Notes: generated from the sequence alone by a model not told the origin. 50,900 bases of DNA from a bacterium (GCA_919901855.1 CAKKQC010000016.1:1-50900), one strand, 5' to 3'; shown: positions 12,590-44,052, counted from the stretch's first letter. Numbers and translations: made by a program.

Positions 12590-13849
12590 ATGAACGACAC
12601 CCTCGCCATCCGCGGAGGCCCCCGGGTGGTGCCCGAGGGCGAGATCAGGTCCTGGCCCGAAGTGACCGACCGGGACCGGGAGATGGTCATGGCCGCCCTC
12701 GCCAGCGGCCGCCACAACTTCGGTCCCCAATGCCAGAAGCTCCAGGAGGAATTCGCGGCGTGGAACGGCAACCGGCACGCGCTGGCCACGAACTCGGGCA
12801 CCGCGGCCCTGCACATGGGACTGGCCGCCTGCGGACTGTCCTGCGGCGACGAAGTGCTTGTCCCGGCCTACACCTGGTCCTCGTCCGCGACCTGCGTCAT
12901 GCACCACAACGGTCTCCCCGTATTCGTGGACATCGACTTCCGGACGATGAACATGAACCCGGACCTCATCGAGGCCGCGATCACCCCGAAGACCAAGGCC
13001 ATCATCCCCGTCCACCTCCACGGCCTCCCCATGGACATGGGCAAGGTTATGGCGATCGCCAAGAAACACCACCTCTTCGTGGTCGAGGACTGTTGCCAGG
13101 CTCACGGAGCCACCTGGAAGGGAAAGAAGGTCGGCACCTTCGGCCACTGCGCCGCGTTCAGTTTCAACCAGAACAAGCTCGTAGCCTCCGGCGAGGGCGG
13201 GGCGTTCGTGACGGACGACGCCGAGCTGCTCGAGCGCGCCCAAAAGGTCTGGTACTTCGGCGAGACGCACGACCCCTCGAAGAAGGAGGAGTACCACGTC
13301 TACGCGCTCGGCTGGATGTACCGGAGCAACGACCTGACCGCCGCGTTCGGCCGGGCGCAACTCGAAGTCCTGGATCGCAACCTCGCCGCGATCAAGGCAA
13401 ATGCCGGAGTCCTCGCGGCCGCCCTCAAGGGCACCCCGAACCTGATCCTCCCCGAGGCGCGCGACCCCGAGGGCCACAACTGGTACAACTACACGCTCCG
13501 GTTCGACATGAAGGCTCTGGGCCACGAACACGACGCCGGCGCGTTCCGTCATCGGCTCGTGAAGGCGCTCGTCGCCGAGGGCGTGGAAACGCTCGTGTGG
13601 CAGGACTTCGCCCTGCCCGACATGACCGTATTCCGCGCCCGGAACGCGTACGGTCACGGATGTCCCTGGTCGTGCCCCTACGGCCGGGGCGTCACCTACG
13701 ATCGCGACGCCTTCCCCCAGGCGCGCCGGCACGCGGACTGGCACACGGGGATGACTTTCCCCATCCGGCACCCGAACGGACCCCGCCAGGCCGAACTCAC
13801 GGCGAAGGGCATCCGGAAGGTGATGGAGCACATCGGGGACATCCCGTGA
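12590..13849 (+). CDS. DegT/DnrJ/EryC1/StrS family PLP-dependent aminotransferase
   Basis: A 419-residue fold-type I PLP enzyme of the DegT/StrS family, which transaminates keto-sugars or related carbonyls, usually with Glu as donor. Visible motifs: TNSGTAALHMGL (phosphate-binding turn), PAYTWSSSA, the cofactor-facing EDCCQAHGA, and the Schiff-base lysine K196 in FSFNQNKLVASGEGG. The C-terminal third is longer than usual and includes a segment with several His and Trp residues (RARNAYGHGCPWSCPYGRG) similar to DegT members outside classic sugar-nucleotide clusters. No sugar-nucleotide genes are nearby. The stop overlaps the next start (GTGA), linking it to a ceramidase-like hydrolase. Confidence 0.9.
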   Translation: MNDTLAIRGGPRVVPEGEIRSWPEVTDRDREMVMAALASGRHNFGPQCQKLQEEFAAWNGNRHALATNSGTAALHMGLAACGLSCGDEVLVPAYTWSSSATCVMHHNGLPVFVDIDFRTMNMNPDLIEAAITPKTKAIIPVHLHGLPMDMGKVMAIAKKHHLFVVEDCCQAHGATWKGKKVGTFGHCAAFSFNQNKLVASGEGGAFVTDDAELLERAQKVWYFGETHDPSKKEEYHVYALGWMYRSNDLTAAFGRAQLEVLDRNLAAIKANAGVLAAALKGTPNLILPEARDPEGHNWYNYTLRFDMKALGHEHDAGAFRHRLVKALVAEGVETLVWQDFALPDMTVFRARNAYGHGCPWSCPYGRGVTYDRDAFPQARRHADWHTGMTFPIRHPNGPRQAELTAKGIRKVMEHIGDIP

Positions 13850-15114
13850 AGGCCGGGTTCGGCGAGGCCGACATCACGCCGGCCGTCCCCTGCTCCAAGA
13901 TCGGCTGGATCAAGGACGTCAAGGCCACCCGCATCCTCGACCCGCTCCACGCCAAGGCGCTCGTCCTGGAGGAATCCGGCGGCGCGTTGGGCATCATCGC
14001 CCTCGACACGCTCAGCATCCGCTGGACCCAGGTCGAGCGGATCCGCAAGGGCATCTCGGCGCTCGGTTTCCCGGGCGACCGGGTCATGATCTCGACCACG
14101 CACAACCACGCGGGCCCCGCCGTCGCGCACGAGGGAGACGTGGAGCGGGACGAGGCGTACCTCGACGGGCTCGTCGACCGCTCGGTCGCGGCGTTCCGGC
14201 AGGCGCTCGACCGCCGCGAGGAAGCGGAGGTCGGGTTCGGCCGGGCGGTGGAAATGGGCGTCGTCTTGAACCGCCGCGTCGTCTACCGCGACGGGCTGGT
14301 TCGCACGCACGGCTCGCTCGCCCATCCGGACGCCCTGTTCGTCGAGGGTCCCGTCGACCCGGAGGTCGCGGTGATGGCCGTCCGGTCGGTGAGCGGCACT
14401 ATGCTGGGAGCGACCGTCTCCTACGCCCTGCACCCGACCTACCACGGCGACGATGAGTGCATCTCGGCCAACTGGCCCGGCGTGATGGCCACCCGGCTCG
14501 CGGCGCGCGGCGTACCCGTCACGCTCTTCCTCCAGGGCACCCAGGGCAACATGAGCACGGGTGACCCGCTGCGTCCCGGGCATGAGCCGGACATGGAAAC
14601 GGTCGGACAGGTCATGGCGGAGGCCGCTCGGCGGGCGCTCGAGGGCATCAGATTCACCGCCCACCCGAAGCTCCGGTTGTCGTCGGAAGTCGTTCCGCTC
14701 CCCTACCGCCAGGCCACGGAAGACGAGTGGCATGGGAGGATCAGGGGCGCCCAGCGGTTCGTGGACCCCGACGCGTACGAGCGCGCGATTCCCCGGCTGC
14801 GGCGCAAGATCGCGGAGCGCGGCGGCGTGAAGCCCGCCCAGGTGCAGGCGCTGGGCATCGACGACCATGTCTTCGTCGGCCTCCCCGGCGAGGTCTTCGT
14901 CCAGCTCGGGCTGGCCATCAAGGAACGCGCGTTCCCCTTGCTCGCGCACCCGGTCATGGCCAACGGCATGCTCGGGTACATCCCCCATCTCGACGCCTTC
15001 AAACGCGGAGGTTACGAAACGACGTTCACCGCCGGGGTGGATATGGCGCCCGAGACCGGGGACCTGCTCGTGGACGCCGCGGTGCGGCGGATCGGGGCGC
15101 TCGGGGGATCCTGA
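13846..15114 (+). CDS. Neutral/alkaline ceramidase N-terminal-like hydrolase, copy 1
   Basis: A 422-residue protein resembling the catalytic domain of neutral/alkaline non-lysosomal ceramidases. It opens with AGFGEADITPAVPC, has the metal-site ISTTHNHAGPA, the STGDPLRPG-like segment and the late GMLGYIPHLDAF. In true ceramidases the zinc enzyme cleaves N-acyl sphingosine; bacterial short forms without the C-terminal domain are widespread and their amide substrates are unknown. No signal peptide is present, so cytoplasmic. The GTG start at 13846 overlaps the DegT stop. A distant paralogue lies at 21212-22426. The next gene converges 16 bases away. Confidence 0.82.
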   Translation: MKAGFGEADITPAVPCSKIGWIKDVKATRILDPLHAKALVLEESGGALGIIALDTLSIRWTQVERIRKGISALGFPGDRVMISTTHNHAGPAVAHEGDVERDEAYLDGLVDRSVAAFRQALDRREEAEVGFGRAVEMGVVLNRRVVYRDGLVRTHGSLAHPDALFVEGPVDPEVAVMAVRSVSGTMLGATVSYALHPTYHGDDECISANWPGVMATRLAARGVPVTLFLQGTQGNMSTGDPLRPGHEPDMETVGQVMAEAARRALEGIRFTAHPKLRLSSEVVPLPYRQATEDEWHGRIRGAQRFVDPDAYERAIPRLRRKIAERGGVKPAQVQALGIDDHVFVGLPGEVFVQLGLAIKERAFPLLAHPVMANGMLGYIPHLDAFKRGGYETTFTAGVDMAPETGDLLVDAAVRRIGALGGS

Positions 15115-17602: not shown

Positions 17603-18367
17603 ATGGCTGTCAGCGAGATCCACTTCACCCAGGCAAACTCGATCCAGAAGATGACCGCGGCGACGGTCATTTACCCCGAACGGCTCCCGGGACCGTTCCC
17701 GGTCCTGTACCTCCTGCACGGGCTGTCGGACGATCACACCGCGTGGACGCGGCGGACGAGCCTCGAGCGGTACTGCGAGGGACTCCCGCTCATCGTCGTG
17801 ATGCCGAACGGCGGACGCGGGTTCTACACCGACGCCGTCGCGAAGCCGAACGCCTCGTTCGAGACCCTGATCGTCAAGGACCTCGTGGGGTGGGTGGACG
17901 CGACGATGCGCACGATCCCGCGCCGCGAGGGCCGCGTCGTGGAGGGGCTCTCGATGGGCGGGTACGGGGCGGCCAAGCTCGCGCTCAAGCACCCGGACAT
18001 GTTCTGCGCGGCCGTCAGCCATTCGGGCGCCCTGAACTGGGCGTCGCACCGGCTCGACCCGAAGAACGACTGGCACCGGGAGTGGATCCCGGTCATGGGC
18101 CGCAATCCCAGGAACGGACCCGACGACGTGTACGCGCTCGCGACCAGGTGCCCGCGGGACCTTCTGCCCACCCTGCGGATCGACTGCGGGAAGCAGGACT
18201 TCCTGATCCAGGACAACCGCAACTTCCACCGGCATCTCCGGAAACTCAACATCCCGCACGAGTACGCGGAGTCCACCGGGGCGCACAACTGGGAGTACTG
18301 GGACCGCGAGGTCCGCAATGCCCTCAAGTTCTTCTGCCGGGTCCTCGACATCCGCCGGGCGAAGTAG
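17603..18367 (+). CDS. Alpha/beta hydrolase esterase (EstA/esterase D-like), copy 1
   Basis: A 254-residue esterase of the tributyrin-esterase/esterase D group. It has the early LYLLHGLSDDHTAW oxyanion region, the nucleophile elbow GLSMGGYGA with S117, D199 in DCGKQD and H228 in GAHNWEYW, a complete Ser-Asp-His triad. Relatives cleave short-chain acyl esters, feruloyl or acetyl groups or S-formylglutathione. No signal peptide. The second copy lies 23 bases downstream and shares about the whole scaffold, so this is a tandem duplication. A sugar isomerase follows, consistent with deacylation of sugar esters, which is inference. Confidence 0.9.
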   Translation: MAVSEIHFTQANSIQKMTAATVIYPERLPGPFPVLYLLHGLSDDHTAWTRRTSLERYCEGLPLIVVMPNGGRGFYTDAVAKPNASFETLIVKDLVGWVDATMRTIPRREGRVVEGLSMGGYGAAKLALKHPDMFCAAVSHSGALNWASHRLDPKNDWHREWIPVMGRNPRNGPDDVYALATRCPRDLLPTLRIDCGKQDFLIQDNRNFHRHLRKLNIPHEYAESTGAHNWEYWDREVRNALKFFCRVLDIRRAK

Positions 18368-18390: not shown

Positions 18391-19149
18391 ATGGCCGTCA
18401 CCGAGATCCACTTCAGCGCCGACAACGCGATCGGCAGGATGAACGCCGCGACCGTCCTCCTCCCGGAGCGCCGGGAGGGGCCGTTCCCGGTCCTCTACCT
18501 CCTGCACGGGTGGTCGGACGACCACACGGCCTGGGCGCGGCGGACCAGCCTCGAGCGTTACGTAGGCGGGCTTCCGCTCATCGTCGTCATGCCGGACGGC
18601 GAACACGGCTCCTACGTGGACGCCCCCCGGCCCCGCGCGGGCTTCGAGACGCTCATCGTCCGGGACCTGATCGGGTGGGTGGACCGGACGTTCCGGACGA
18701 TCCCGCGCCGCGAGGGCCGGGTCATCGAGGGACTCTCGATGGGCGGCTACGGGGCCGCCAAGCTCGCGCTCAAGTACCCGGACATGTTCTGCGCCGTGGC
18801 CGCCCACTCCGGGTCGGTGGCCAAGGCATCGCTTCCCCGGTTCCTGCCTCCGGCGCGTCGGCGCGAACTCGCGCCCATGTTCGGCGAGCACCCCATAGGG
18901 GGTCCCGACGACGTCTTCGCGCTCGCGGCCAGGTGTCCGCGCCACAAGCTCCCGGCGATCCGGCTCGACTGCGGGAAGGACGATTACCTCCTCGAGCAGA
19001 ACCGGGCCCTGCACCGGCACCTGGCGAAGCTCCGCATCCCGCACGAGTACGCGGAGCCGCCGGGCGCCCACACGTGGGAGTACTGGGACCGCCAGGTGCA
19101 GGAGGCGCTCGATTTCTTCTGTCGCGTCCTCAAACTGGGCCGGACCTGA
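18391..19149 (+). CDS. Alpha/beta hydrolase esterase, copy 2
   Basis: This 252-residue paralogue of the preceding esterase retains the triad: S116 (GLSMGGYGA), D198 (DCGKDD) and H227 (GAHTWEYW). The differences cluster around the acyl pocket (VAAHSGSVAKASLPRFLP versus the equivalent region in copy 1), so substrate range probably differs. The start ATG at 18391 is preceded by GGAGG about 15 bases away, a weak ribosome binding site; coupling to the upstream gene is likely. It ends 11 bases before the sugar-phosphate isomerase gene. Confidence 0.88.
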   Translation: MAVTEIHFSADNAIGRMNAATVLLPERREGPFPVLYLLHGWSDDHTAWARRTSLERYVGGLPLIVVMPDGEHGSYVDAPRPRAGFETLIVRDLIGWVDRTFRTIPRREGRVIEGLSMGGYGAAKLALKYPDMFCAVAAHSGSVAKASLPRFLPPARRRELAPMFGEHPIGGPDDVFALAARCPRHKLPAIRLDCGKDDYLLEQNRALHRHLAKLRIPHEYAEPPGAHTWEYWDRQVQEALDFFCRVLKLGRT

Positions 19150-21211: not shown

Positions 21212-22426
21212 TCACCGTCGCTCGTTCAGCCTCGAAAGCGCTTCGCGGGCGGCGGAGACCAGGAGGTCGTCCGCGCCGGGGGCGACGCGGGAGGCCGTGG
21301 GCTCGTAGCCGCCGCCGTACTCCCCCGAGGTCGGGATGTACCCGAGTTCGGCGTCGTCGTAGTCGTTCGTGTACCCGCCGACGAAGATGCCCCGGAACCC
21401 GGGTAGGGCCTTGATCCGGAGCCCGATCTCGACGAACGGCTCGCCCGGCAGCCCGACGATCGCGAGGTCCCCGATCCGGAACACCTGCACCTCACCCTCG
21501 TAGAACCCGCCCGCAGGCGAAGGGTCAGGGCCCGCGATCTTGCGCGGGAGCCGGACCGGCACCCGGGCGGCGGCCAGCGGCGCGGACCGGACGGGGGTGG
21601 CCCCGACGAGCGCCCGCATCATGGCATGCGCGACGATCGACCCCTTCGCCTCGCAGACCTCGAAGGTGCCGCGGGGCGGGGTCGGCGTGATATCGCCGCA
21701 ACACCCCTGCGCCACGGCCACCCAGAGCCCCTGGTCTCCCGAGATTCGTTCCAGCTCCCGCACCGCTACGCCGGGCCAGTCGGCCGTGACGAGGAAGTTG
21801 CCGCCGGTCACGGCCGTCGCGTGGCACGCGAACTGGGCGATGACGCCCCGCGGACGGCCCGCCCGCCGGATCTCGATGACCTGGACCTCGGGATCGACGG
21901 GGCCCAGCCGGGCGACGTCGGCCGGGTCGGGGTTGTCCCAGACCATCCTGATGCCGCCGTCCTTCATATGGAACCGCCGGTTGTGCTGGACCTCGGTGCA
22001 TGCGGTCCGGCCATGCAGGATCTCGGCCGGTTCCAGGGCGGCAGCGGCGTCGCCCAGCGCGACCCCCAGCGCGGCCGGAAGCGCCTCCAGCCAGCGGGCG
22101 TGTGCCGCGTGATCGGCCTCGACGCCGGGCACCGGATGGGGCGACGGGCCGCCGTGCGTGTGGGTGGACGAAACCATGATGCGGTCTCCGGTGGTGCCGG
22201 CCCGGCATGCGCCTTCCGTCCGGATGGTCGCGGTCGTTGCCGCCGGCATCCCGACGAGGTCCGCGATCAGCCACGCGATCCGGGTGGTCCCGTCATCAAG
22301 AACGATCGCCCGCGCAAAGAGCGGATCGTGAACGCCCTGCGAACCCGTCTTTCGGGTCTCGAACCCGTCCAGAGGCACGTTCGGGGGCGGCGTGATCTCG
22401 ACTGTCGCCAGACCGGCTCTCATCAT
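21212..22426 (-). CDS. Neutral/alkaline ceramidase-like hydrolase, copy 2
   Basis: A 404-residue protein of the ceramidase N-terminal-like family, last gene of a four-gene operon. It has AGLATVEITPPPNVPLDGF at the start, the metal-site VSSTHTHGGPS, and the late GGYTNDYDDAELGYIPTSGEY. It is related to the gene at 13846 but divergent. No signal peptide. The ATG at 22426 overlaps the stop of the upstream gene (ATGA, 22423-22426). The natural substrate is unknown; the operon with a transglutaminase-like secreted protein and a metallohydrolase suggests amide or peptide breakdown, which is inference. Confidence 0.82.
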   Translation of the reverse strand: MMRAGLATVEITPPPNVPLDGFETRKTGSQGVHDPLFARAIVLDDGTTRIAWLIADLVGMPAATTATIRTEGACRAGTTGDRIMVSSTHTHGGPSPHPVPGVEADHAAHARWLEALPAALGVALGDAAAALEPAEILHGRTACTEVQHNRRFHMKDGGIRMVWDNPDPADVARLGPVDPEVQVIEIRRAGRPRGVIAQFACHATAVTGGNFLVTADWPGVAVRELERISGDQGLWVAVAQGCCGDITPTPPRGTFEVCEAKGSIVAHAMMRALVGATPVRSAPLAAARVPVRLPRKIAGPDPSPAGGFYEGEVQVFRIGDLAIVGLPGEPFVEIGLRIKALPGFRGIFVGGYTNDYDDAELGYIPTSGEYGGGYEPTASRVAPGADDLLVSAAREALSRLNERR

Positions 22427-24978
22427 CGCGACTCCCTTCCCAGGGGCGGCAGAACGACGAGCGGGGGAACGTCCCGATCCACCCGTACCGAGTCGAACAC
22501 CTCGACCTCGGAGACCACGATACCCCAGCCCGAGCGAGGCGCACAGGTCACCCGGATGAAGCGCGCCATCGCGGGCTTCTCCATGAGAATGCGATACCCG
22601 TAGGCCAGCCGGCCACCCGCGGGCAGGTCATCGAACCGGGGGGAATCGTCCAGCTCCCACGGGACGAAGTCGGCCGGGGGCTCGAAGACCTGGTTGAACC
22701 CCGCCGACCCGGCCGGGACGAACGCCTTCCCGTCGGCCGACGTCTCGACCCTGATCGCATCCGGGAACGTGAGATGGAAGCCGGCATCCTGGTTCGCGTG
22801 CACGACGACCCCGGCCACGGTCTTCGGGCCTCCCAGATCGACCGTGATCACCGGCGCGACATCGCGGGCGAAGATGACGTTGGTCGGCATCCATTTCGCC
22901 GAGACGTAGGTGTCGGGCGGCGCGATCACGCCGTCGGTCAAGTCGGCGCCGCCGTCGGGATTCCGGTCGTCCTGCGCGCCCGCGAGGACATACGGCCGGC
23001 CGAGCGCCAGGTTCGTCCCCCACTGGTACCGGGCCCACGGCGCCTTCGCCCCGGGCCTCACGTCGACGCCGTCCGGGTACCCGGTCGCCGCGTCCGCACC
23101 GGCCAGCTCCACGCGGACCCACTTCATCGCAGGGTCCCGGAATCCGCCCACGTCGATCGTGTACTCGTAGGCGGTCGAGGTCACCCGCTCCGTGTGCGTC
23201 CGCTCGACGTCGCCGGTCGTCCGGTGCTCGACCCAGTCGTACGTGACCCTAAGGGGCGAGAACCCCTCCACCCGGGGTCGGTGGTGCACGGTCATCAGCG
23301 CCGAGGCAATGCCGGCGAACTTCCACCGCTGCGTGTCCAGCGGTGTCTCGAACACGTACCGGAACCAGATCGCGCGCACGTTCGCGGGAGGATCGCTAAC
23401 GGGCACGTTAACGACCAGATCGTACGGCAGGATGCGGCCGGTCCTGCGGGCGTCCTCGACGAAGGTCTTCCCGTCCCATGAGTGCAGGAGCGAGACCCGG
23501 CACCCGTCGGCGTTCACGCTCACGTTCCCCCCGAACTCGGCCCCCGTGATCGGCGTGGGCGCCGCCACTTTCCACGTCACCCGGCACGGATATCCCCGGC
23601 CCCGCGTGCGCAGGGTCGGCACATTGAAGTAAGGGTGCGGGTTCACGTCCACGGACCGGTCGTCGCTGATCGAAGTCCGGTGCCGACCGCCCGTGAGCGG
23701 AGGCGCCAGCGTGATGGTCTCCGTCTGCGGGCCCATGCGAACCTGCACCCGGTTCGGGCCCCGGACCAGCCGGGGCAGGCTCGGCCGATTGAGTTGGGTC
23801 AGGGTCTCGATCGAGATCGCCGACAGGAGTCCTCCCGAGCGCAGAGTCACCTGCACCAGGTACTCGGTCACCCCCGCGACCGGGGCGAGAAGATCAACAC
23901 GGCCGGCCTTCGAGGTCACCGGCGTCCACCGGATGCCGGCGTCGCGCGAGACCGCGACCGAAACCCCAGTGCCGGTCAGGGAGAGCGCCGCCGAGGTGAC
24001 CACGTTCGCCGCCGACACCTTGAAGACCACCGTCCCGGGACCCCTGATCCCCGCCGTCGTCCACCGGACCCCGGATTCCGAGTACACGTGCGCCCGGGTC
24101 GCCGGATCGCGCAGGTCGGGCGCATACCGCCACACGCCTGTGGCACGGATGTTGCGATCCCCCGACGCCTCGTCCACGTCCTTGCCGTTCAGCGGCCGGT
24201 AGTACCGGGGATCGGGCTTCCCCGCGTCGAGCGCCTTGAACCAGCGCGTGTACGACTCCCCCGGTCGCAGGGTCAGATCGTACCGGCGGCCCCACCGGAT
24301 CGCGAGATGGTCCTCGTTGATCTCGTTGGGCGGCAGGAAGGAATCCATGCCGTTCGCAAGCGTCCGCTGGTACTCGACCGGACGATCAGACCCCGCCCGC
24401 CAGCCCTGCTGGTCCGTGAGCCCCTTCACCGGATTGGTCCCGATGCCGGGGCCGAACCGCTCGAGGTAGTACCGGGGCGTCCGCTCGATCTCGCGGACGG
24501 AGGCGACCTCGCCGGCGTCGTTGAAACAGTAGAAGCTCATGGAGTTGTCGAACATGTGCCACGTCTTCCCGCCGTCCCACGAGGCCTCGGAGACGGTGTG
24601 GTCGCCGAGCTGGACGTAGTGCGCCTGCCAGCCGAGGTTGAGCCAGAGCGAGTTGTCTATCCCGGAGATGATCCCGCAGTTCGTGTAGCCGTAGCTCGTG
24701 AAGAAGAGAATGGGATCGAGAACCTCCTGGCCCTCCTCCTCCGGGACGCCCGTCTGTTTGCGCAGGCGCTGGGACCAGCGCCAGACCCCGATCGCCTTCT
24801 CCTGCGAGGTCGAATACTGGGCGGTCACGGAGGCGAGATAGCTCGCGACATCCGTGAAGTCCGGGGCGCTGTCGGTGATGAGCGTGACGTGATGGGCCGC
24901 CGGGACCGGCGGGACGGCGGCGCCCACGGCTGGCAACGCCAGCAGGATGACGACGGCGATCCGCCGGATCACGGCCAT
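22423..24978 (-). CDS. Secreted transglutaminase-like protein with discoidin (F5/8 C) domain
   Basis: An 851-residue exported protein with a signal peptide (residues 1-26, VILLALPAVGAA). Residues 45-190 look like a transglutaminase-like cysteine protease fold: C101 in GYTNCGIISG, then HTVSEASWDGGKTWHMFDNS providing the His and Asp. The middle is beta-rich and repeats an immunoglobulin-like pattern, ending near residue 640. Residues 680-845 form an F5/8 type C (discoidin) module (GRPYVLAGAQDD, KWMPTNVIF, ITVDLGGPKTVAGVVVH, RFIRVTCAPRSGWGIVVSEV) that typically binds carbohydrate or surfaces. The ATG at 24978 overlaps the TSUP gene by ten bases. Catalytic activity is inferred from the triad-like residues. 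Confidence 0.75.
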   Translation of the reverse strand: MAVIRRIAVVILLALPAVGAAVPPVPAAHHVTLITDSAPDFTDVASYLASVTAQYSTSQEKAIGVWRWSQRLRKQTGVPEEEGQEVLDPILFFTSYGYTNCGIISGIDNSLWLNLGWQAHYVQLGDHTVSEASWDGGKTWHMFDNSMSFYCFNDAGEVASVREIERTPRYYLERFGPGIGTNPVKGLTDQQGWRAGSDRPVEYQRTLANGMDSFLPPNEINEDHLAIRWGRRYDLTLRPGESYTRWFKALDAGKPDPRYYRPLNGKDVDEASGDRNIRATGVWRYAPDLRDPATRAHVYSESGVRWTTAGIRGPGTVVFKVSAANVVTSAALSLTGTGVSVAVSRDAGIRWTPVTSKAGRVDLLAPVAGVTEYLVQVTLRSGGLLSAISIETLTQLNRPSLPRLVRGPNRVQVRMGPQTETITLAPPLTGGRHRTSISDDRSVDVNPHPYFNVPTLRTRGRGYPCRVTWKVAAPTPITGAEFGGNVSVNADGCRVSLLHSWDGKTFVEDARRTGRILPYDLVVNVPVSDPPANVRAIWFRYVFETPLDTQRWKFAGIASALMTVHHRPRVEGFSPLRVTYDWVEHRTTGDVERTHTERVTSTAYEYTIDVGGFRDPAMKWVRVELAGADAATGYPDGVDVRPGAKAPWARYQWGTNLALGRPYVLAGAQDDRNPDGGADLTDGVIAPPDTYVSAKWMPTNVIFARDVAPVITVDLGGPKTVAGVVVHANQDAGFHLTFPDAIRVETSADGKAFVPAGSAGFNQVFEPPADFVPWELDDSPRFDDLPAGGRLAYGYRILMEKPAMARFIRVTCAPRSGWGIVVSEVEVFDSVRVDRDVPPLVVLPPLGRESR

Positions 24979-25712
24979 GACAGCCCCATCCTACGCCGGA
25001 GGACTTCGGCGAGGAGCAGGATGAGGACGACGACCATGAGCGGACGGATGATCCGGGCGCCCTGTTTCACGGCCAGCATCGACCCCAGCAGGTTCCCCGC
25101 GATCCCGGCGCCCGCCGCCCAGAGCGCCAGCGGGAAGACGACCCGGCCGCTCCAGAGAAAGACCGCGACGCCCCCGACGTTGCTCGCGAGGTTCGCCAAC
25201 CGGGCGTTCGCGGAGGCCGTCAGGAGGTCGAACCCGAGGACCGCCGCGAACGCGATCGTGAGGAAGGTGCCGGTGCCGGGCCCGAAGAACCCGTCGTAGC
25301 ACCCGATCACAGCGCCGATCGCGAGCGAGGCCGCGTGCCTGCCGGCTGTCCCCCGCGGACGCCACCGGACCAGGTGCCGCTTCGGCATCCGGTCATGCAC
25401 GAGGAAGAAGACGAGGACCAGGGGCACCAGCACGAGCATGATCGCGTTGATCGTCGGGGCCGGGACCAGGAGCGCGGCCTGCGCGCCGGCGGCGGAGCCC
25501 GCCAGCGCCCCGGCGGCGGCGAAGAGTCCGATCCGGACCCGGACCGTACCGGCATGCCAATACCGGGCCACGGCAGTGAAAGTCCCGCACGAGCTCGAGA
25601 ACTTGTTCGTCGCCAGCGCCGCGTGCGGCGGCAGGCCGAAGGCGAGATAGGCGGGGAGCGAGATCAGTCCTCCGCCGCCCGCGATCGAGTCCACGAATCC
25701 GGCCACTCCCAC
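24969..25712 (-). CDS. TSUP family exporter (TauE/SafE-like)
   Basis: A 247-residue membrane protein of the TSUP family, which moves sulfite, sulfoacetate or other organosulfur anions out of the cell. The first signature GFVDSIAGGGGLISLPA and the repeat signature GCYDGFFGPGTGTFLTI are both present, with about seven hydrophobic segments. The GTG at 25712 gives an N-terminus about ten residues short for the first helix. The frame stays open upstream through EVAVICALVGV, and a CTG at 25739 preceded by GAGGT would complete the helix, so the real start may be that CTG. It lies between the CehA-like gene and the transglutaminase-like gene in the same operon. Confidence 0.88.
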   Translation of the reverse strand: MGVAGFVDSIAGGGGLISLPAYLAFGLPPHAALATNKFSSSCGTFTAVARYWHAGTVRVRIGLFAAAGALAGSAAGAQAALLVPAPTINAIMLVLVPLVLVFFLVHDRMPKRHLVRWRPRGTAGRHAASLAIGAVIGCYDGFFGPGTGTFLTIAFAAVLGFDLLTASANARLANLASNVGGVAVFLWSGRVVFPLALWAAGAGIAGNLLGSMLAVKQGARIIRPLMVVVLILLLAEVLRRRMGLSWP

Positions 25713-25744
25713 GAGGGCGCAGATGACGGCGACTTCCAGGATGG

Positions 25745-28270
25745 CTACCTCAGCGTCGGGTGGTTATGGAACACGCCCCGGGCGTGGAGGCGGTTGTGCA
25801 GGCTCCGGTGGGCGGAGACGAGCAGGCGGTGCATCCGCCGGTAGTCCCGGGTCTCGGCCCGCGTCCCGATCGTGTCGAGGAAGGCCAGCGACCCCGCGAT
25901 CTGGTCCAGGATCGTGTCTGCATCCGCCGCCGCGAGGAACGGCGTGCCCGCGACCTCGGCCATGACCGGACTCGTGTGCGCGGCGATGATCTCGGGCTTG
26001 CCCGCGTACCGCCCCCGAACGAGCAGGGCGATCCAGGACGACCGGTCCACGCGCACGCGGAACCGCCCCCCGCCCGCGGCCGGGTCGACGGCCATGCTCT
26101 CCCGGATCTCGCCGTTCACCATGAGCTCGACCCGGGTCAGGGGCGCCATGACCGACGCCACGCGCCACTCGACATCGAATGTGCCGCCCGTGCGACCGAG
26201 CCTGACCCGGGACCCCGCCGGGCGGCCGTCGACCGAGAACTCGATCAGGGGGCCGTACGTGACGAACGTCTCGCCGCGCCGGACCGCCCCGACCCAGGCC
26301 TCGTAGGTGAAGGGCTGTCCCGCCTCGAGCTTCGCGTAGGTCCGAACCGTCCCCGCCGCCGTCGTCGTCGCCATCTTGTCCGTCCCGCCCACGGCGGCGA
26401 CAAAGTAGCCGCAGTTGAGGTACCGGTACCAGTCCGAGAGCGAGTAGGGGTCGAGGCCGCCCCAGAGGTTCTGCCAGCTCGTCATCTCGATGCCGTCCAC
26501 GCGCCCCAGCACGATCGCGGCCGCGTGCTCGGCGCGGGGATTGGGAAAGTGCGGGAGCACGACGAGCCCGCCCTGCTTGCGGCACTGCGCCGCCCACTCC
26601 GAGAGCAGGACCTCGACCGGATCGCCCAGCGCGGACTCGTCCGGCCCCCCGGTCGTCATCGGGGCGATGACCCGGCCGCGGTAGCCGAGGAGCGAGATGT
26701 GGCCGAGCACGTGCTGGCGGTTCTCGGTCCCGACCCGGACCAGGTGCTCGCCGTCGCCCCCGGCCCCCTTCGCCCCCCACGTAGTCTTCCCGTCGAAGTC
26801 GCCCGCGTTCGTCATCAGCTCGCCCCATTGGCTGGCGAGCAGGTTGATGACGTTGAGCCCCTCCCCCGCCGCCTCGAGAATGCCCGTAACCGGTGAGAGG
26901 AAGTGGACGTGGGTGTCGGCCGTGACCCATCCCTTCTCCCGCCAGCGCAGGACCTTGTCCAGCGGGATCGTGACCTTCCGGGTGCCCGAGCCGACGCGGA
27001 CGCGGAGACGTCGGGGCCGGACCTCGAACCCGCGGCTCACCTCGATGAAGACGTCGCCGCACGGCAGATCGAGCACGGTCTCGCCCGGGATGTAGGTGCC
27101 CGGCAGGGCCCCGTCGTGGATCACGTCCGTCGAGTAGTCCTCGAACCAGGCCGGGTTCGGAATCCGGTGCCGGTCCGCTGGCGCCAGGTACTCGCCGGCG
27201 GCGCCGTGCACGTGGAGTTTGACTGCGACCGGCCGCCCGGTGGCCCGGTCCACGATGCGGAGCTCGACCCGCTGGCGCGCCGGGTGTACGACGGCGACGT
27301 CCGGCACCCGGCGCGGGGTGACGGGCACCGTCCGGCCGCCCGTGAAATGGAACCGGGCCTCCGGGTGCGCGGCGAACTCGATCAGGATCTCGCGATCCGA
27401 TGCGGGAGCGCCCGAGCGGTGGAGACCGCGCTCCCAGCTCCCGTTCGGGTAGAGCCGGCGCGGCTCGGCCCGAATCACGACCCCGAGATCCACCTCGATC
27501 CCGCCGAGCCGGCCCGGCCACGCCAGTTTGGGGTCGAACTTCTCCCCCGGCGCCATCCTCCAGATCATCTTCCGCCGCCGCTCCCAGCGCAGGGGATGCG
27601 AGCGCACCCGGCCCGCGGAGACGGCGTAGAGGACGACGGCGCCGGTCACCGGGACGAGCCGGAGTCCGGTCACGGGAACGCCGGGCCGCGGATTCCTCCA
27701 CGCCCAGAGGTACGTACCGAACTCCCACGCCTCGCCGCTCGAGGCGCGCGTCTGGCTCCACCCCCAGCCACCTCCGTCCTGCTCGTGGTTCGCGGCGACC
27801 GGGTGCGGCTTCGCCGCCGGGACCGCGTCAAAGCACTGCTCGCCCCAGGGATGGCGGAAGGCCCCGACCTCGCGGCGGCGCCGGACCGGGAGCGTCTCCT
27901 CGCTCCCGTCGGCGCGCAGCACGACGTAGTCCGCCGCGTGCTCGCCCAGGTGGCCGTGTCCCGTGGATGCCCGGATGAACCCGGACACGTCGCGATCGAG
28001 CGGCACGGTATCCGACGTGTGCAGGAAGACGAGCCACGTAGCCCGGACGGCCCGGCATCGCAACGTGACGGGAGTCCTCGACACGACCGCCGGCCGACGG
28101 ACCCGGAACGGGATCCCGTGATAGACGCACGCGCCCGAGGGCGCCTGGGGTGCCGCCCCGGCCAGCTCCTGCGAGACGAGGTCCCCCGGGAGGAGACCGG
28201 GAGCCCTCGAGCCGGTCAAGGCAACCGGGCGGAAGAGCGGGGAGGCGGGACCATCCCGGAACGAAGGCAT
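25745..28270 (-). CDS. CehA/McbA-type metallohydrolase (PHP domain)
   Basis: An 841-residue protein whose C-terminal half resembles the CehA/McbA carbaryl-hydrolase family of PHP metallohydrolases. The metal-site motif GWVTADTHVHFLSP begins the catalytic domain near residue 455, with later GLVVLPHFPNP and NCGYFVAAVGGTDK contributing His and Asp ligands. The first 400 residues are beta-rich. No signal peptide is evident. It is the first gene of the TSUP/transglutaminase/ceramidase operon. TAGAAT six bases before the ATG at 28270 marks a leaderless start. Known relatives hydrolyse esters or amides; the substrate here is unknown. Confidence 0.8.
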   Translation of the reverse strand: MPSFRDGPASPLFRPVALTGSRAPGLLPGDLVSQELAGAAPQAPSGACVYHGIPFRVRRPAVVSRTPVTLRCRAVRATWLVFLHTSDTVPLDRDVSGFIRASTGHGHLGEHAADYVVLRADGSEETLPVRRRREVGAFRHPWGEQCFDAVPAAKPHPVAANHEQDGGGWGWSQTRASSGEAWEFGTYLWAWRNPRPGVPVTGLRLVPVTGAVVLYAVSAGRVRSHPLRWERRRKMIWRMAPGEKFDPKLAWPGRLGGIEVDLGVVIRAEPRRLYPNGSWERGLHRSGAPASDREILIEFAAHPEARFHFTGGRTVPVTPRRVPDVAVVHPARQRVELRIVDRATGRPVAVKLHVHGAAGEYLAPADRHRIPNPAWFEDYSTDVIHDGALPGTYIPGETVLDLPCGDVFIEVSRGFEVRPRRLRVRVGSGTRKVTIPLDKVLRWREKGWVTADTHVHFLSPVTGILEAAGEGLNVINLLASQWGELMTNAGDFDGKTTWGAKGAGGDGEHLVRVGTENRQHVLGHISLLGYRGRVIAPMTTGGPDESALGDPVEVLLSEWAAQCRKQGGLVVLPHFPNPRAEHAAAIVLGRVDGIEMTSWQNLWGGLDPYSLSDWYRYLNCGYFVAAVGGTDKMATTTAAGTVRTYAKLEAGQPFTYEAWVGAVRRGETFVTYGPLIEFSVDGRPAGSRVRLGRTGGTFDVEWRVASVMAPLTRVELMVNGEIRESMAVDPAAGGGRFRVRVDRSSWIALLVRGRYAGKPEIIAAHTSPVMAEVAGTPFLAAADADTILDQIAGSLAFLDTIGTRAETRDYRRMHRLLVSAHRSLHNRLHARGVFHNHPTLR

Positions 28271-28276
28271 TGCGCC

Positions 28277-28282
28277 ATTCTA
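28277..28282 (-). promoter_or_regulatory. -10 box, leaderless start of CehA-like operon
   Basis: TAGAAT lies six bases before the ATG at 28270 (spacer GGCGCA). No convincing -35 was found. Confidence 0.5.
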
Positions 28283-28494: not shown

Positions 28495-31400
28495 ATGAAA
28501 CGCATGCGGGCTGTCGCAGCCGTCGCCCTGCTGGCGGCCTGTCTCGGCGTCCCCGCCTCCCGCGCCCGCGCCGACTCGTGCGTCGCCGACATCTACTACA
28601 ACGGCGACGCGCCGTCGAGGTTCGTCTTTCCCAACTGGATCCGGGTCTACGAAGGCAGCTTCGTTCTCTGGATGACCCTGGGGTCGCCCGACGGCGACTT
28701 CCTGGGCAGCATCACCGTGGTCAACTACGGCACCGCGGTTCCGGGAACCGACCTCACCAACGTCTACTTCGCCCTCATCGACCCCAGCAAGGGCACCGTA
28801 ACGGGGCCGCTGCCGATGACCTTCGCGGGCAACTACCTGGAGGACTCGGGCACCTACCCGGCCTGGACGTGGGTGGGACCGACGGCCCAGGACATCGCCT
28901 ACACGACGGACCTGTGCAACTACCAGCCGGCGTGCGGCCAATATTCGCTGATCGCCCTCTACGCCGACATCGGCTCCTGTCCGACCGTGGGCAACACCAT
29001 CAACCTCGGGTTCCCGACCAACTCGATCTCGGATACGACGTACATCGGAAGCGTCTGGGACAACATTCCGGCCTGGGCCCCCGGACCGTACTGCGTGGTC
29101 CCCTGGTACGTGAACGACGTCAACCGTGGCGCGGACATGGACACGATCGCGTGGGCGTTCAAGGATGGACCCGACCTGACCTCCCCCGGCGACACGATCT
29201 CGTACACGATCACGTACGGCAGGACGGGAACCGTCCTCAACTCGATCACGGTTACGGACTCGCTGCCGCCGTACCTGCACTACATCATGGGCTCCGCGTC
29301 TCCCCCGCCCGACCCGGGCTGGGACCCCGATCCGGGACCGCCGCTGCGATTGCGATGGACAACCAACGGCCCGATCAACCCCGCGGGAGGCCCCACCGCC
29401 CAGATCACCTACCAGGTGAGCGTGGACTGGGGGAACGGCGAGTCCTTCGAGCCCGGATCCGGGGACGTCGGAGCGCCCGAAGGCTTCAAGCTCAAGAACT
29501 ACGCCCACGTCAGCTTCGCCAGCGACTGCACCCAGAAAGCCGTCGTCACCGACCCGACGATCACGTCCGTGCGCCGGTTCATGTTCTGGAAGATCGGGGA
29601 CAACGACATGCTGTTCAGCCAGTCGATGGGCCAGCCGCCGGACGAGATGATCTACTCGATCTTCATGAAGAACGTGGCCACGAAGAAAACGTGGTGGAAC
29701 GTGGTCGTGTGGGACACGGTGCCGGCCCAGCTCGACCCGTACGACATCGACTGCGGATTCGAGGACCCGTGCGCGGGATGGACGATGACGCCGACCGGCT
29801 GCGCGGCGGCGGGCCCGGGAGTGGTGCTCACGGGAGCCAAGACCACGATCCTGACGTGGAGCCTGGACATGCCGCCGGGGTTCACGCTCACGGTCAGGTG
29901 GAAGGCGAAACTGAGGCCCTCCACTACGGTCGGGGAGACGGCGATCAACCGGGCGAGTATCAAGGGGCGGGGACGGACGGGCGTCGTGGAAGGCACGGGT
30001 GACACGGGAACGACGCGCAATTTCACCCACACGGCCCTGATCAAGCTCAACACCATGTACGTGAGTTACGTCGGGATGGCGGGCGCCGACAACGACAAGG
30101 GAGCTTGTCCCGGATTCATGCTCGTATTCTTCCCGCTCAACAAGAAGTGCCAGTTCGAGCTGCGCGAGATCCAGTACCAGGGCGCGGGATTCGCGACCGT
30201 CGGGGGCGTTTCCGACTCGATCGGCTGCTGGATCGGGGACTGCATCGGCGGGTTCCCGGGCAGTCCGACCTGTGTCCTCGGGAGCGGCGCGATCCCGGGC
30301 AACACTCCCGGCCTTGGCGCCGGGTGCAAGGCCGAGCGCGTCCCGGCCTACTACGACCCCGCCGCCTGGGTGTCGGTCTGTCCCACCTTTCCGTTCAGCT
30401 TCATCTTCAAGGTGACGTCGAACTCGCCCGTCCTCTGGCAGATGCTGACGCGGATGGACAACTGCAACCAGGACCGGATCACGTACGCCCCGGCCTCGAC
30501 GTTGACCTACGCGGGCTACACGCTCTACACCTGGCACACGAACATGCCGCAGTACGCGGACCAGGTCTACATCAACACGAGCGAGACCGCGCCCACGACG
30601 GTCCACGTGTTCAAGTACAACTACGGCATACTGGAATGGGACTACGACAGCAGCTACGAGCTCGGGATCAACAGCGCGGCGACCCGGCTGGGGACGGCGG
30701 CCGATTTCGCGCCTTTCCGGATAATCTCGTCGGATACCCCGCTCATCGTCCACATCGGTGAAAGCGCGCTCAACACCGTGCAAGGGGGATCCTGCTGCTG
30801 CTGCCAGGGCTCGGACAACCACGGCGCCTACGCCCCCATGGCCGAGACCGGGTACGTCGTCGGGTCCGGCAGCTTCTACGGGATCTCGGACCCCGGCGGG
30901 TGCGTCAGCAGGAGGGGCACGGTGTGCGTCGGCGCCATGAACGCTCCCGCCACCTACCAGATCTGGGCCTACTCCCCCCTGAACGTCTCGGGTGGCAACC
31001 CCTGGATCCCGCCGCTCCTCCGGAGCAACGAGGGAACCTGGGAGCTGAAGATGACCGATACCGCCGGGAGCGGCCTCATCGTGAACGCCAACACGCCCAA
31101 CGTCTACGGGGGCGCGCCGTTCAACCGGGGCGGCTCGAACCTCTTCAAGATCAAGGTCACTTCCGGCGGCCCGATCCAGGTCCTGCACGGGACGAACATG
31201 TGGGATTGGTGGGCCGGCGGGTCGGTCTTCCACTCGGCGGCGGGGGTCCCCGCGGGGAGCGAGTTCTGGTACCACCAGGGCGCCGGCCGGGGAGGCACGA
31301 AGGCGACCACGGAACAGGACACCCTGTGCGTCCAGATGTTCACTCCCGAAACCGGCGTCGCCATGCGTGGCGTCTCGGGCGACGGCTTCTCGGCGAGCTA

Positions 31401-32253
31401 CACGACCAACGGAACCGACCAGTGCATCGCGTTCATGAAGGAGACGGACATGACGACCGGGTCGAAGCGCGTCTGGCGGTTCAACGTGCTGACGGCCGGG
31501 AGCGCCGCGATCGCGCTCTACCAGCAGGCCAAGGTCACGGAAAAGGGGTTCACGGCGCCGTTCCTCGCTACCGGCACGTTCTACGACATCATCGCGCCCC
31601 AGGTCGTCTTCTCCGGCCAGAGCTTCTGGATCACGATCATCGTCCGAAGCGATCTCGGCGGCGTCGTCACGACCTACGCCGGCACCTCGTCGTTCACGTC
31701 CACGGACCCGAAAGCCCAGATCCAGCTCACGGGCATGGACGCCTACAACTACACGTGGGTCCCGGCCTCCGACGGGGGCATCCACATCTTCGTCAACGTG
31801 AGCCTCGTCAAGATCGGCCGGGCGTCGATCGTGGCCGCCGACACCATGGACGGTTCCATCACGGGACTGGCCTCGGTGATGGTGGTCGGCGTGGACGTCA
31901 AGCTCTGGAAGGAGCCGAAGCTCATGGTGGCCGCCTCGGGCGACACCGTGCAGTTCAAGATCTGCTGGAGCAACTACTCGTCCTCGTCCGCGTTCACGAT
32001 GGTGGTTACCGACGCGGTGCCGGTGGGCACCTCGTTCATACCCGAGGCCGGGATGGCCGCCCTGAGCTGCGGGAACACCGACGGGATCGCCCTCGGGGTC
32101 TCCTACTCGACGCTCGCGGTTGCGGTCATGCCGGGCGCCGCCTCGTTCACTTCCGCTAACCCGGTAGCGGGCACCCGGTGGCTCCGGTGGACGGTCCCGA
32201 TGTCGGGGGTCCAGACCACGGGTTGCGCCTGCTTCCGCGTCCAGGTGAACTAG
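28495..32253 (+). CDS. Large secreted protein with DUF11 (conserved repeat) domains
   Basis: A 1252-residue secreted protein. The signal peptide (residues 1-23, ending SRARA) is followed by about 200 beta-rich residues. A DUF11-type module lies near residues 225-320 (SPGDTISYTITYGRTG, ITVTDSLPPYLHYIMGS), with a second DUF11-type module at about 340-510 and a third at the C-terminus (ASGDTVQFKICWSN, TMVVTDAVPVGTSF). The centre (about 560-1000) has a four-cysteine run at C767-C770 and CVSRRGTVCVG, suggesting disulfides. There is no sorting signal or transmembrane anchor. DUF11 proteins are cell-surface or filamentous proteins in many bacteria; this one may be a surface or structural protein, by inference. 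Two hairpins follow. Confidence 0.88.
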   Translation: MKRMRAVAAVALLAACLGVPASRARADSCVADIYYNGDAPSRFVFPNWIRVYEGSFVLWMTLGSPDGDFLGSITVVNYGTAVPGTDLTNVYFALIDPSKGTVTGPLPMTFAGNYLEDSGTYPAWTWVGPTAQDIAYTTDLCNYQPACGQYSLIALYADIGSCPTVGNTINLGFPTNSISDTTYIGSVWDNIPAWAPGPYCVVPWYVNDVNRGADMDTIAWAFKDGPDLTSPGDTISYTITYGRTGTVLNSITVTDSLPPYLHYIMGSASPPPDPGWDPDPGPPLRLRWTTNGPINPAGGPTAQITYQVSVDWGNGESFEPGSGDVGAPEGFKLKNYAHVSFASDCTQKAVVTDPTITSVRRFMFWKIGDNDMLFSQSMGQPPDEMIYSIFMKNVATKKTWWNVVVWDTVPAQLDPYDIDCGFEDPCAGWTMTPTGCAAAGPGVVLTGAKTTILTWSLDMPPGFTLTVRWKAKLRPSTTVGETAINRASIKGRGRTGVVEGTGDTGTTRNFTHTALIKLNTMYVSYVGMAGADNDKGACPGFMLVFFPLNKKCQFELREIQYQGAGFATVGGVSDSIGCWIGDCIGGFPGSPTCVLGSGAIPGNTPGLGAGCKAERVPAYYDPAAWVSVCPTFPFSFIFKVTSNSPVLWQMLTRMDNCNQDRITYAPASTLTYAGYTLYTWHTNMPQYADQVYINTSETAPTTVHVFKYNYGILEWDYDSSYELGINSAATRLGTAADFAPFRIISSDTPLIVHIGESALNTVQGGSCCCCQGSDNHGAYAPMAETGYVVGSGSFYGISDPGGCVSRRGTVCVGAMNAPATYQIWAYSPLNVSGGNPWIPPLLRSNEGTWELKMTDTAGSGLIVNANTPNVYGGAPFNRGGSNLFKIKVTSGGPIQVLHGTNMWDWWAGGSVFHSAAGVPAGSEFWYHQGAGRGGTKATTEQDTLCVQMFTPETGVAMRGVSGDGFSASYTTNGTDQCIAFMKETDMTTGSKRVWRFNVLTAGSAAIALYQQAKVTEKGFTAPFLATGTFYDIIAPQVVFSGQSFWITIIVRSDLGGVVTTYAGTSSFTSTDPKAQIQLTGMDAYNYTWVPASDGGIHIFVNVSLVKIGRASIVAADTMDGSITGLASVMVVGVDVKLWKEPKLMVAASGDTVQFKICWSNYSSSSAFTMVVTDAVPVGTSFIPEAGMAALSCGNTDGIALGVSYSTLAVAVMPGAASFTSANPVAGTRWLRWTVPMSGVQTTGCACFRVQVN

Positions 32254-41077: not shown

Positions 41078-41848
41078 TCACCCCCCCGTCCGGCGCAGGG
41101 CAACCTGAAGACGGGTCGCGGCGTCGAGACGGGCCAGCGGCCGGCCGAGGTTCCACTCGTCCCACCAGCCGACGAGCTCGAACGACCCCGACTCGCGGAC
41201 CAGCGCCAGGAACTCGTCCGGGTAGACCGCGCGGCGGCGGGAGACCCCGCGGATCGTCTCGGCGCGACCGTGATCGTCGATCTCGAACACCACGGTCTCG
41301 TCGAAGGTTCTTTCCGGCTCGTCCACGTTCGTCCAGGCGACCGCCGCCCGCACCCGGACGCCATCCCGGGCGACCTCCCACCGGTGCTCCCCCGGCCGGA
41401 GTTCGACGTTCTGGATGCACCAGTCGAGGAGATAGAGCCCGCCGGGCCGGAGCACGCCCGCGACCGACGCCAGGTTCCCGGCCACCCCCGCCAAGTCGCG
41501 CACGTAGAGCGAGTTCATGGCGATGAAGGCGAAGTCGAACGGGCCCGGCATCGCGAACCCCGCGAGGTCGCCCTCGAGGAAGGCCGTCGTCAGTCCCAGC
41601 GCCGCCGCGCGCCTGCGGCCAAAGTCGAGCATCGCCGGGCCCGAGTCCAGCCCCGTGTACGCGTACCCGCGCCGGGCCAGCTCCGGCAGGTGCGGGCCGG
41701 TGCCGCACCCGACGTCGAGCACCGTGCGGACCGGAATCCGCGAATGCTCCCGGATGCACGCCTCGATCCCGTCCACCTCCCGCCGCAGGTCCCGGAACGC
41801 GAACGCGACGTCGCACGCGAGGGCGTGGTCGTATATGCCGCCGGTCAT
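41078..41848 (-). CDS. Class I SAM-dependent methyltransferase
   Basis: A 256-residue methyltransferase. It has VLDVGCGTGPHLPELARRG (motif I), GLDSGPAMLDFGRRR (motif post I), FDFAFIAMNSLYVR (motif II) and LRPGGLYLLDW (motif III). The C-terminal half is beta-rich and probably sets substrate choice; the acceptor is unknown. The ATG at 41848 overlaps the stop of the upstream glycosidase-like gene (ATGA) and its end lies one base before the sigma-factor gene, so its expression is tied to both. Confidence 0.88.
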   Translation of the reverse strand: MTGGIYDHALACDVAFAFRDLRREVDGIEACIREHSRIPVRTVLDVGCGTGPHLPELARRGYAYTGLDSGPAMLDFGRRRAAALGLTTAFLEGDLAGFAMPGPFDFAFIAMNSLYVRDLAGVAGNLASVAGVLRPGGLYLLDWCIQNVELRPGEHRWEVARDGVRVRAAVAWTNVDEPERTFDETVVFEIDDHGRAETIRGVSRRRAVYPDEFLALVRESGSFELVGWWDEWNLGRPLARLDAATRLQVALRRTGG

Positions 41849-44052
41849 TGGTCCGCTGGCGTGTAGGATGCGGTCGCGCCGTTCCACCGCGATATGACGG
41901 TCCCGGCTGGCACCGGGAGCCCGCCCGCGACAGCCGGGCTCTTGCCGAAATTGGCCACGATCTCGGTGCCGTCGGCGAAGACGGTCTTCTGGACGAGCCG
42001 GTCTTCGGAGAGCCACCGGAAGTCCGTCATGGCGGTGGTCGCCAGCCGCCGGTGGAGCGGGGAGAAGAACCGGTAGTGGGCGACCACCCGCTCGCGCTGC
42101 CTCGTGAACTCGTCCACGGTGAAGTGGTAGAGCGGCGGGACGTTGTAGAGCTGTTCGAGGAGGGCCATCGTCGCGAAGGTGCCCTTGAACTTCAGGCTCG
42201 GCGTCCCCCAGTGATGGGTCGTGATCACGGAATCGTGGAACACGACCTGGTAGAGCGGCAGGCGGAACCGGGGGTCGCAGAACCGCCGGACGTACTTCGG
42301 CTTGATCGGCGCCACCTTGAAGAAGACCTCGGGACACTCCGGAGGCCACCAGCCGCCCAGGTTGTACTTCGACTTGTCGTTCTCGAGATCCGGATCGTCC
42401 CAGGCGCCGATCGCGGGGGTAAGAACCCCGTGGCCGTAGTGGACGGCGACCGCGGCCAGGGCGGATCCGCCCTCGGAGCCGACCGGCAATCCGTAGGTCC
42501 GCGCGATCCAGCGCATCCGGTCGATCCGGTTGGCCACATCCTGCGCCTGGGTCCCCGGATGCGAGGGGTTGTAGTCGTCGAACCACTGGCCGGCGGCGTC
42601 GCAGTCGACGAACCACGCCGAGAATGGGATGGCCGCCATCTTCCCCCCCACGCGCTTCTCGACCCACGGCCGGGCGGCCCGGGAGTTCAGCCAGCGACCC
42701 TTGCCGCCGAATCCGCGCGTCAATGACCCGTCCGCGCGCATGATGCCGCCGGTCGCGAAGAGTTCGGCGTCGAACTGGGCCGTGTCCGACGTGTCCACCT
42801 GGCCCGGGCGGTGCACGCTGTCGTAGGAGTCGTACGGGGCGTAAAGGTACCCCATCTCCTCGGCGGCCCTGGCCACCTCGGGCTTGCCGTCACCGGAGTT
42901 CAGGTCGCCGAGGGTCAGGCACGCGCGATCGATCCCGGTCGCACCGAGCATCTTGAGGAACCTGACCGAGATGCCGCCGCCCCAATCCGGCGCGGGAGCC
43001 AGCAGTCCCGGGAATACCTCGATCACTTGCTCCGGCGTGAGGACCCCCTGGGAGATCAGGTCGGAGAAGGCTCGGGTGACCTCGGACTTGAGGTAGTCGT
43101 ACTTCCACTCGTCCGCGAGGAGATTCCGGACGGCCTTCTGCCCGGCGGGAGGCAGCCGGGCCCACAGGCGCCCGGCGGCCGAGTCCGCCGCCGCCTCGGG
43201 CAACCCGGCCAGCCGGCGGATGAACCCGTCCCAATCCTCGACGTCGCCGATCTCGAACGGGAGGCCCCACAGGTAGGCCTGCAGCGCGCCGGGAAGGCGT
43301 TCGGCGCGTGGCGTCTGCCGAATCTTGTCCGCCATGGAGACGAACCCGCCCTGCTGGACCAGCCAGGCCCGGTACTGGCGCGCGGGCTCGACGGGCGATG
43401 GCCCGCCGATCCGCACTATCAGCCCGTAGACCTTCTCCGCGTCCAGCCGCGTGAACTCGTGCGTGATCCGGAGTCCAAAACGGCCGTCGCGCCGGGTGTA
43501 CGTCAGCGCGCAGTTGAACGGGTTCGGCAGGATGTACGTGAAGGTGCCCCCGCGGAGCGCAAGCCCCCAGCATGGCAGGGAAAACTCCTCGGTGACCGTG
43601 TACTCGTTCTCGGGGTCCCCGGCCAGATCCTGGAGCCACCCCGCATCGTCCACCGGCACCCAGTTGCCCTCGCCCCGGGGCAGGATGAGCGCCTCGATGT
43701 TCTTCCCCGGCGCGACGATGGGCCACGCCAGCTTGGCCGTCCGGTCGGACTTGAGCCCGATCGTGATGTCGTTGCCCTCGATCCGGATCCGGGCGTCCAA
43801 CCCCCGTGACGCCAGCGTCCAGTGGGCCGACGCGCCGTCCTGTTCGAGGATCTTCGCGGGGCCGAGACCCGACTGGCCGTCCGAGACCAGGACCGACGTC
43901 CCGACGTCGGAGACGGCCTCGACCCGGAGCGTGCCGGGGTCGACGCGGATGGTCCATCCGCCCGCCCGGAGCGCGATCGTCTGCGCCGCCGGTGCCCACT
44001 GGGGAATGGCCATCCCAGCCACGAAGACTACGAGGAGGGCACGTCTACCCAC
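41845..44052 (-). CDS. Secreted glycoside-hydrolase-like protein
   Basis: A 735-residue exported protein with a signal peptide (residues 1-23). Residues 25-230 form a beta-sandwich. From about 270 to 620 a TIM-barrel-like region includes GIDRACLTLGDLNSGDGKPE, LYAPYDSYDSVH, WFVDCDAAGQWFDDYNPSHP and GLPVGSEGGSALAAV. The D-x-D and E near strand ends are candidate catalytic residues, and the pattern recalls GH101-related proteins. The C-terminal 90 residues form a beta domain. Exact family and substrate are uncertain. It heads the eight-gene stress operon. TATCAT six bases before the GTG at 44052 fixes the start. Confidence 0.7.
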   Translation of the reverse strand: MGRRALLVVFVAGMAIPQWAPAAQTIALRAGGWTIRVDPGTLRVEAVSDVGTSVLVSDGQSGLGPAKILEQDGASAHWTLASRGLDARIRIEGNDITIGLKSDRTAKLAWPIVAPGKNIEALILPRGEGNWVPVDDAGWLQDLAGDPENEYTVTEEFSLPCWGLALRGGTFTYILPNPFNCALTYTRRDGRFGLRITHEFTRLDAEKVYGLIVRIGGPSPVEPARQYRAWLVQQGGFVSMADKIRQTPRAERLPGALQAYLWGLPFEIGDVEDWDGFIRRLAGLPEAAADSAAGRLWARLPPAGQKAVRNLLADEWKYDYLKSEVTRAFSDLISQGVLTPEQVIEVFPGLLAPAPDWGGGISVRFLKMLGATGIDRACLTLGDLNSGDGKPEVARAAEEMGYLYAPYDSYDSVHRPGQVDTSDTAQFDAELFATGGIMRADGSLTRGFGGKGRWLNSRAARPWVEKRVGGKMAAIPFSAWFVDCDAAGQWFDDYNPSHPGTQAQDVANRIDRMRWIARTYGLPVGSEGGSALAAVAVHYGHGVLTPAIGAWDDPDLENDKSKYNLGGWWPPECPEVFFKVAPIKPKYVRRFCDPRFRLPLYQVVFHDSVITTHHWGTPSLKFKGTFATMALLEQLYNVPPLYHFTVDEFTRQRERVVAHYRFFSPLHRRLATTAMTDFRWLSEDRLVQKTVFADGTEIVANFGKSPAVAGGLPVPAGTVISRWNGATASYTPADQ

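Follow-up and report, generated by a model that had tools for sequence, protein, structure and literature searches.

The close packing of four genes from different families on one strand of a bacterial contig raises the question of whether they serve a common pathway and, if so, on what substrate. To study this, we analysed a window of 50,900 nucleotides, which is contig C16 of a 4.68-Mb genome (93% complete). Four open reading frames run on the minus strand from 28270 down to 21212. They encode a CehA/McbA-type metallohydrolase of the PHP fold (25745..28270, 841 aa), a YfcA-like permease of the TSUP (TauE/SafE) family (24969..25739, ~256 aa), a secreted transglutaminase-like (TGL) protein (22423..24978, 851 aa), and a ceramidase-fold zinc amidase (21212..22426, 404 aa). 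Their coordinates agree with those of a preliminary description of this DNA. The frames have a GC3 of 0.89-0.93 and codon-position GC as in real genes, and together with the profile matches given below this upholds the four identities proposed in that description, the TGL call being made through relatives. The tight coupling it claimed was also found: the stop of the CehA gene (25745) is followed by a gap of 5-32 nt, depending on whether the permease starts at the CTG at 25739 or the GTG at 25712, the TSUP and TGL genes overlap by 10 nt, and the TGL and ceramidase-fold genes overlap by 4 nt (ATGA), preceded by a Shine-Dalgarno-like AGGGAG.

Conservation of the four genes as a unit did not survive the search of other genomes: among those searched, the full set is known from this locus only, and just the pair of TGL and ceramidase-fold genes recurs. 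Across 45 genomes of the phylum, the TGL gene was found, besides the window, only in G003, which belongs to another family. There, the single TGL-family match of the genome and a ceramidase homologue downstream of it are 3 bp apart, and MFS, Gfo/Idh, and amidohydrolase genes follow the pair. By a rough calculation, if a 3-Mb genome has two ceramidase genes and one TGL gene, the latter would come to lie next to a ceramidase gene by chance with a probability of ~0.15%. The nearest homologue of the TGL protein (60% identical, same F5/8C architecture) is in the metagenome-assembled genome DBS2-1.bin101; neither partner gene stands alongside it (the upstream side is short), and the window CehA protein has no match in that genome. 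The best further full-length homologue, found among 387 genomes of the phylum of DBS2-1.bin101, lies in a cluster (G237) with genes for a CBM protein, a DUF5107 protein, a PIG-L deacetylase, a C-N hydrolase, a symporter, a second TGL protein, and a glycosidase-like protein. Two more distant TGL loci hold no partner genes. The same is true of the flanks of the 12 nearest TSUP relatives, and no TSUP, TGL, or ceramidase neighbours were found at the same-family homologue of the CehA gene or at nine further long-form loci, whose flanks were searched across all frames.

The TGL protein has a signal peptide (by eye), a TGL domain at ~38-167, a beta-rich middle, and an F5/8C domain at ~704-812, the last matched by F5_F8_type_C (PF00754, 704-812, 1e-6). 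The TGL domain itself is below Pfam detection, with no match to PF01841, and its assignment as transglutaminase-like comes from relatives. Residues C101, H127, and D144, the Cys-His-Asp triad of the TGL core, are invariant across four homologues; one of these four passes PF01841 (29.4 vs 23 bits), and a profile-profile comparison with hhalign links the window protein to it with a probability of 96. The profile of the TGL protein found no match among PDB sequences, and an AlphaFold model built from a two-row alignment had a pLDDT of 34. A literature search for TGL proteins with discoidin domains in glycan loci returned nothing relevant.

The product of the adjoining gene matches Ceramidase_alk (PF04734) at 74.2 bits (cut-off 32.1; 1.1e-20). 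Its residues H89, H202, E329, and Y363 align with the zinc site of the Pseudomonas neutral ceramidase PaCD (2zws), whose ligands we take to be H97, H204, E411, and Y448, and their equivalents are also present in the ceramidase homologue of G003. The family is widespread, with relatives in 68 of the 384 sampled genomes. A DegT aminotransferase is the immediate neighbour of the ceramidase-fold gene in 7 of 40 fetched loci, which amounts to 7 of 78 neighbour slots, compared with 4 of 316 other genes (one-sided Fisher p=0.0016), a value that is indicative only and was obtained with single-sequence phmmer markers on top-scoring loci. At two loci (L107 and L132), the ceramidase-fold gene is accompanied by DegT, Gfo/Idh, GH20 hexosaminidase, and ROK genes. 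A third (L115) has PTS-like genes, a SIS gene, and a NagA-like Amidohydro_1 protein, then the ceramidase-fold gene, SIS, and Gfo/Idh. The genome under study carries two paralogues. One is in the window (13846-15114, plus strand) and overlaps the end of a DegT/DnrJ gene (12590-13849) by GTGA. The other is on contig C38 (locus L028, G000:C38, 2791-11726), among genes for an ADP-ribosylglycohydrolase, a LacD/DeoC-type aldolase, a PfkB-like protein, SIS, and Gfo/Idh. The window further encodes a GH129 protein (PF11308, 4e-101; 41845-44052, minus strand), from a family known for alpha-N-acetylgalactosaminidases.

The sugar-gene neighbourhoods of the family point to amino-sugar metabolism, and by analogy with paralogues and relatives, N-deacylation is the likely reaction of these enzymes. 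Classical clusters of the Nag/Aga type combine a deacetylase, a SIS isomerase/deaminase, a kinase, and an aldolase. The relatives studied here lie among SIS, Gfo/Idh, DegT, GH20, and LacD-type genes, but a zinc enzyme of the ceramidase fold would act as the deacylase, and the window operon itself has no DegT, Gfo/Idh, SIS, glycosidase, kinase, or aldolase genes. The clusters at L107, L132, and L115 possibly represent an undescribed amino-sugar route. At L115, a NagA-like amidohydrolase is already present, and the ceramidase-fold enzyme may act otherwise there. Literature searches for a link between ceramidases, amino sugars, and DegT, and for ceramidases in polysaccharide utilisation, returned nothing relevant. 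More tentatively, and with the odds against it, the analogy may extend to all short cytosolic ceramidase-fold proteins: they would be deacylases of N-acyl amino sugars (or aminocyclitols), working with DegT and Gfo/Idh proteins in a route unlike NagA/NagB, and in the present operon their partner would be a secreted TGL protein releasing the substrate from a surface glycoconjugate. If so, the common annotation "neutral/alkaline non-lysosomal ceramidase" misleads where short cytosolic members are concerned; their role would be to deacylate amino sugars in bacteria that degrade carbohydrates. The recurrence of DegT, Gfo/Idh, and GH20 genes nearby makes this a directly testable substrate class.

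The CehA protein matches NF038032 (CehA_McbA) at 143.9 bits (cut-off 80; 7e-42). Its metallohydrolase domain spans residues 447-769, no signal peptide was seen by eye, and the motif DTHVH and residues H574, E595, and D631 are kept in a 36%-identical homologue (G001). There is no match among PDB sequences. The NF038032 domain is common to this protein and the CehA/McbA carbamate hydrolases, but the window protein has 841 aa with a long beta-rich N-terminal half, and the carbamate activity of the founding members is not transferable to it. Its long-form relatives stand alone or next to Gfo/Idh or C-N hydrolase genes. A gene for a large DUF11-containing predicted surface protein (28495-32253, plus strand) lies divergently to the CehA gene.

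The explanation that we favour, with a probability of about 0.42, is that the cluster is particular to this lineage, was built around the pair of TGL and ceramidase-fold genes, and serves to scavenge a glycan or glycoconjugate. Outside the cell, the TGL protein would dock on the polymer through its F5/8C domain and cleave an amide or isopeptide bond. After import, an N-acyl amino sugar, or a similar amide, would be deacylated by the cytosolic ceramidase-fold enzyme. The PHP hydrolase could then take off a further ester, carbamate, or phosphate group, and the TSUP permease would move a small anion, for which a carboxylate such as acetate seems more plausible than a sulfur anion. The last two proteins would be additions made in this lineage. 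The adjacency of the pair in G003, the sugar genes beside the family, the paralogues in the same genome, the GH129 gene, and the glycan cluster of G237 all suggest this reading. Against it, two genomes, both of one phylum, are the only ones in which the pair is known, and since the operon has no such sugar genes of its own, the connection with amino sugars is drawn from paralogues and relatives. Our reading retains from the preliminary description the hydrolysis of an amide-containing substrate outside the cell and in the cytosol; it gives up the sulfonated or sulfated nature of that substrate and the export of the corresponding anion.

The main rival of glycan scavenging by the whole cluster is that a compact genome has packed together two separate units: CehA and TSUP, which would detoxify or turn over a small ester or amide and export an anion, and TGL and ceramidase, for glycan work. 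The transcription signals bear on this. We recorded TANNNT motifs 4-9 nt upstream of the start codon at 16 gene starts of the window and compared them with random positions. The motif precedes 8 of the 16 starts (1136, 2009, 12557, 12590, 17603, 24978, 28270, and 44052) and 0.66% of random positions, so this lineage seems to be rich in leaderless transcripts. The operon had been described as lying behind one leaderless promoter, and a leaderless-type -10 element, TAGAAT, is indeed found 6 nt upstream of the ATG of the CehA gene (28277..28282, minus strand). A second such element, TAGGAT (24988..24993, minus strand), lies inside the TSUP gene, 9 nt upstream of the ATG of the TGL gene. Across 12 window genes, with 19 kb of coding sequence, no other TAGRAT occurs on the coding strand, and this one makes use of two rare arginine codons, CGT (3.7%) and AGG (8%). 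A simple scan found no sigma-70 or terminator-like sites at the gene junctions. Because of the promoter-like site within the TSUP gene, we rejected the idea that one promoter serves all four; judging by this motif, the TGL and ceramidase-fold genes can probably be transcribed without CehA and TSUP. This favours two units, as does the distribution of homologues: those of CehA and TSUP occur without TGL or ceramidase genes everywhere sampled, and only the TGL-ceramidase pair occurs twice. However, the overlap between TSUP and TGL and the short gap between CehA and TSUP make one long transcript likely too, and the CehA-TSUP pair is likewise absent from the other sampled loci. We regard two units as possible but somewhat unlikely.

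Breakdown of lipids or lipopeptides, by a true ceramidase or an N-acyl-amino-acid amidase with the TGL protein as a secreted peptidase, is improbable. Neutral ceramidases are the only solved relatives that we found, and TGL folds are often peptidases. The window protein matches PaCD in the N-terminal catalytic fold and the zinc-site residues, but it is a short form (404 aa vs 646 in 2zws), cytosolic by the lack of a signal peptide (by eye), and far below the neutral-ceramidase equivalog cut-off (56.8 vs 1200 bits). A true neutral ceramidase was rejected because of the equivalog score and because the protein falls short of the full length with the C-terminal domain. Moreover, the neighbours of the ceramidase-fold genes are mostly sugar genes: they adjoin TGL, DegT, or Gfo/Idh genes, not lipid genes.

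The preliminary description had proposed that a sulfonated or sulfated amide is taken up and hydrolysed, and that the permease exports the leftover anion, which would be sulfite, sulfamate, or an organosulfonate. The permease matches PF01925 (TauE) over its full length (146.9 bits, 1e-42, profile positions 2-235 of 237). Its best NCBIfam match is PRK10621 (YfcA), at 151 bits and under the cut-off of that model, and it has no match among PDB sequences. Its relatives are 38-48% identical, the closest (47-48%) being proteins of unrelated genomes, and the 12 nearest lie in unrelated contexts where we recognised no sulfur genes by eye. A role in alpha-ketobutyrate use has been reported for one TSUP protein, and for other members the same source cites acetate and glycine in addition to sulfur compounds (PMC12671195); the function of these proteins cannot be predicted from sequence (PMC5840216). 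An amidase with a TauE-type exporter has been described for the degradation of acesulfame (PMC10413263), so the composition of the operon, for which the preliminary description knew no described pathway, is not without precedent. In both cases, an amide hydrolase adjoins a TauE/SafE-type exporter, but the enzymes are unrelated: the acesulfame clusters have amidase-signature and MBL-type hydrolases and an ABC importer, with no TGL, PHP, or ceramidase-fold protein, and the window operon, unlike them, offers no sulfur evidence. The sulfonated-amide pathway is the least probable account and we rejected it as having little support: several TSUP proteins are indeed sulfur-anion exporters, the acesulfame cluster provides a parallel, and the genome has 11 matches to the sulfatase family PF00884, but none of these is on this contig, no gene for sulfonate uptake or desulfonation was recognised near the operon, the nearest permeases have, by eye, no adjoining sulfur genes, and TSUP substrates are broad. 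Nothing at the operon points to a sulfur substrate, and the family name alone is no ground for giving TSUP permeases one.

Elsewhere in the window, two similar esterase genes stand in tandem on the plus strand (17603-18367 and ~18402-19149), the first of which matches PF00756. They adjoin genes for a xylose-isomerase-like TIM barrel protein and a PCMT-like methyltransferase.
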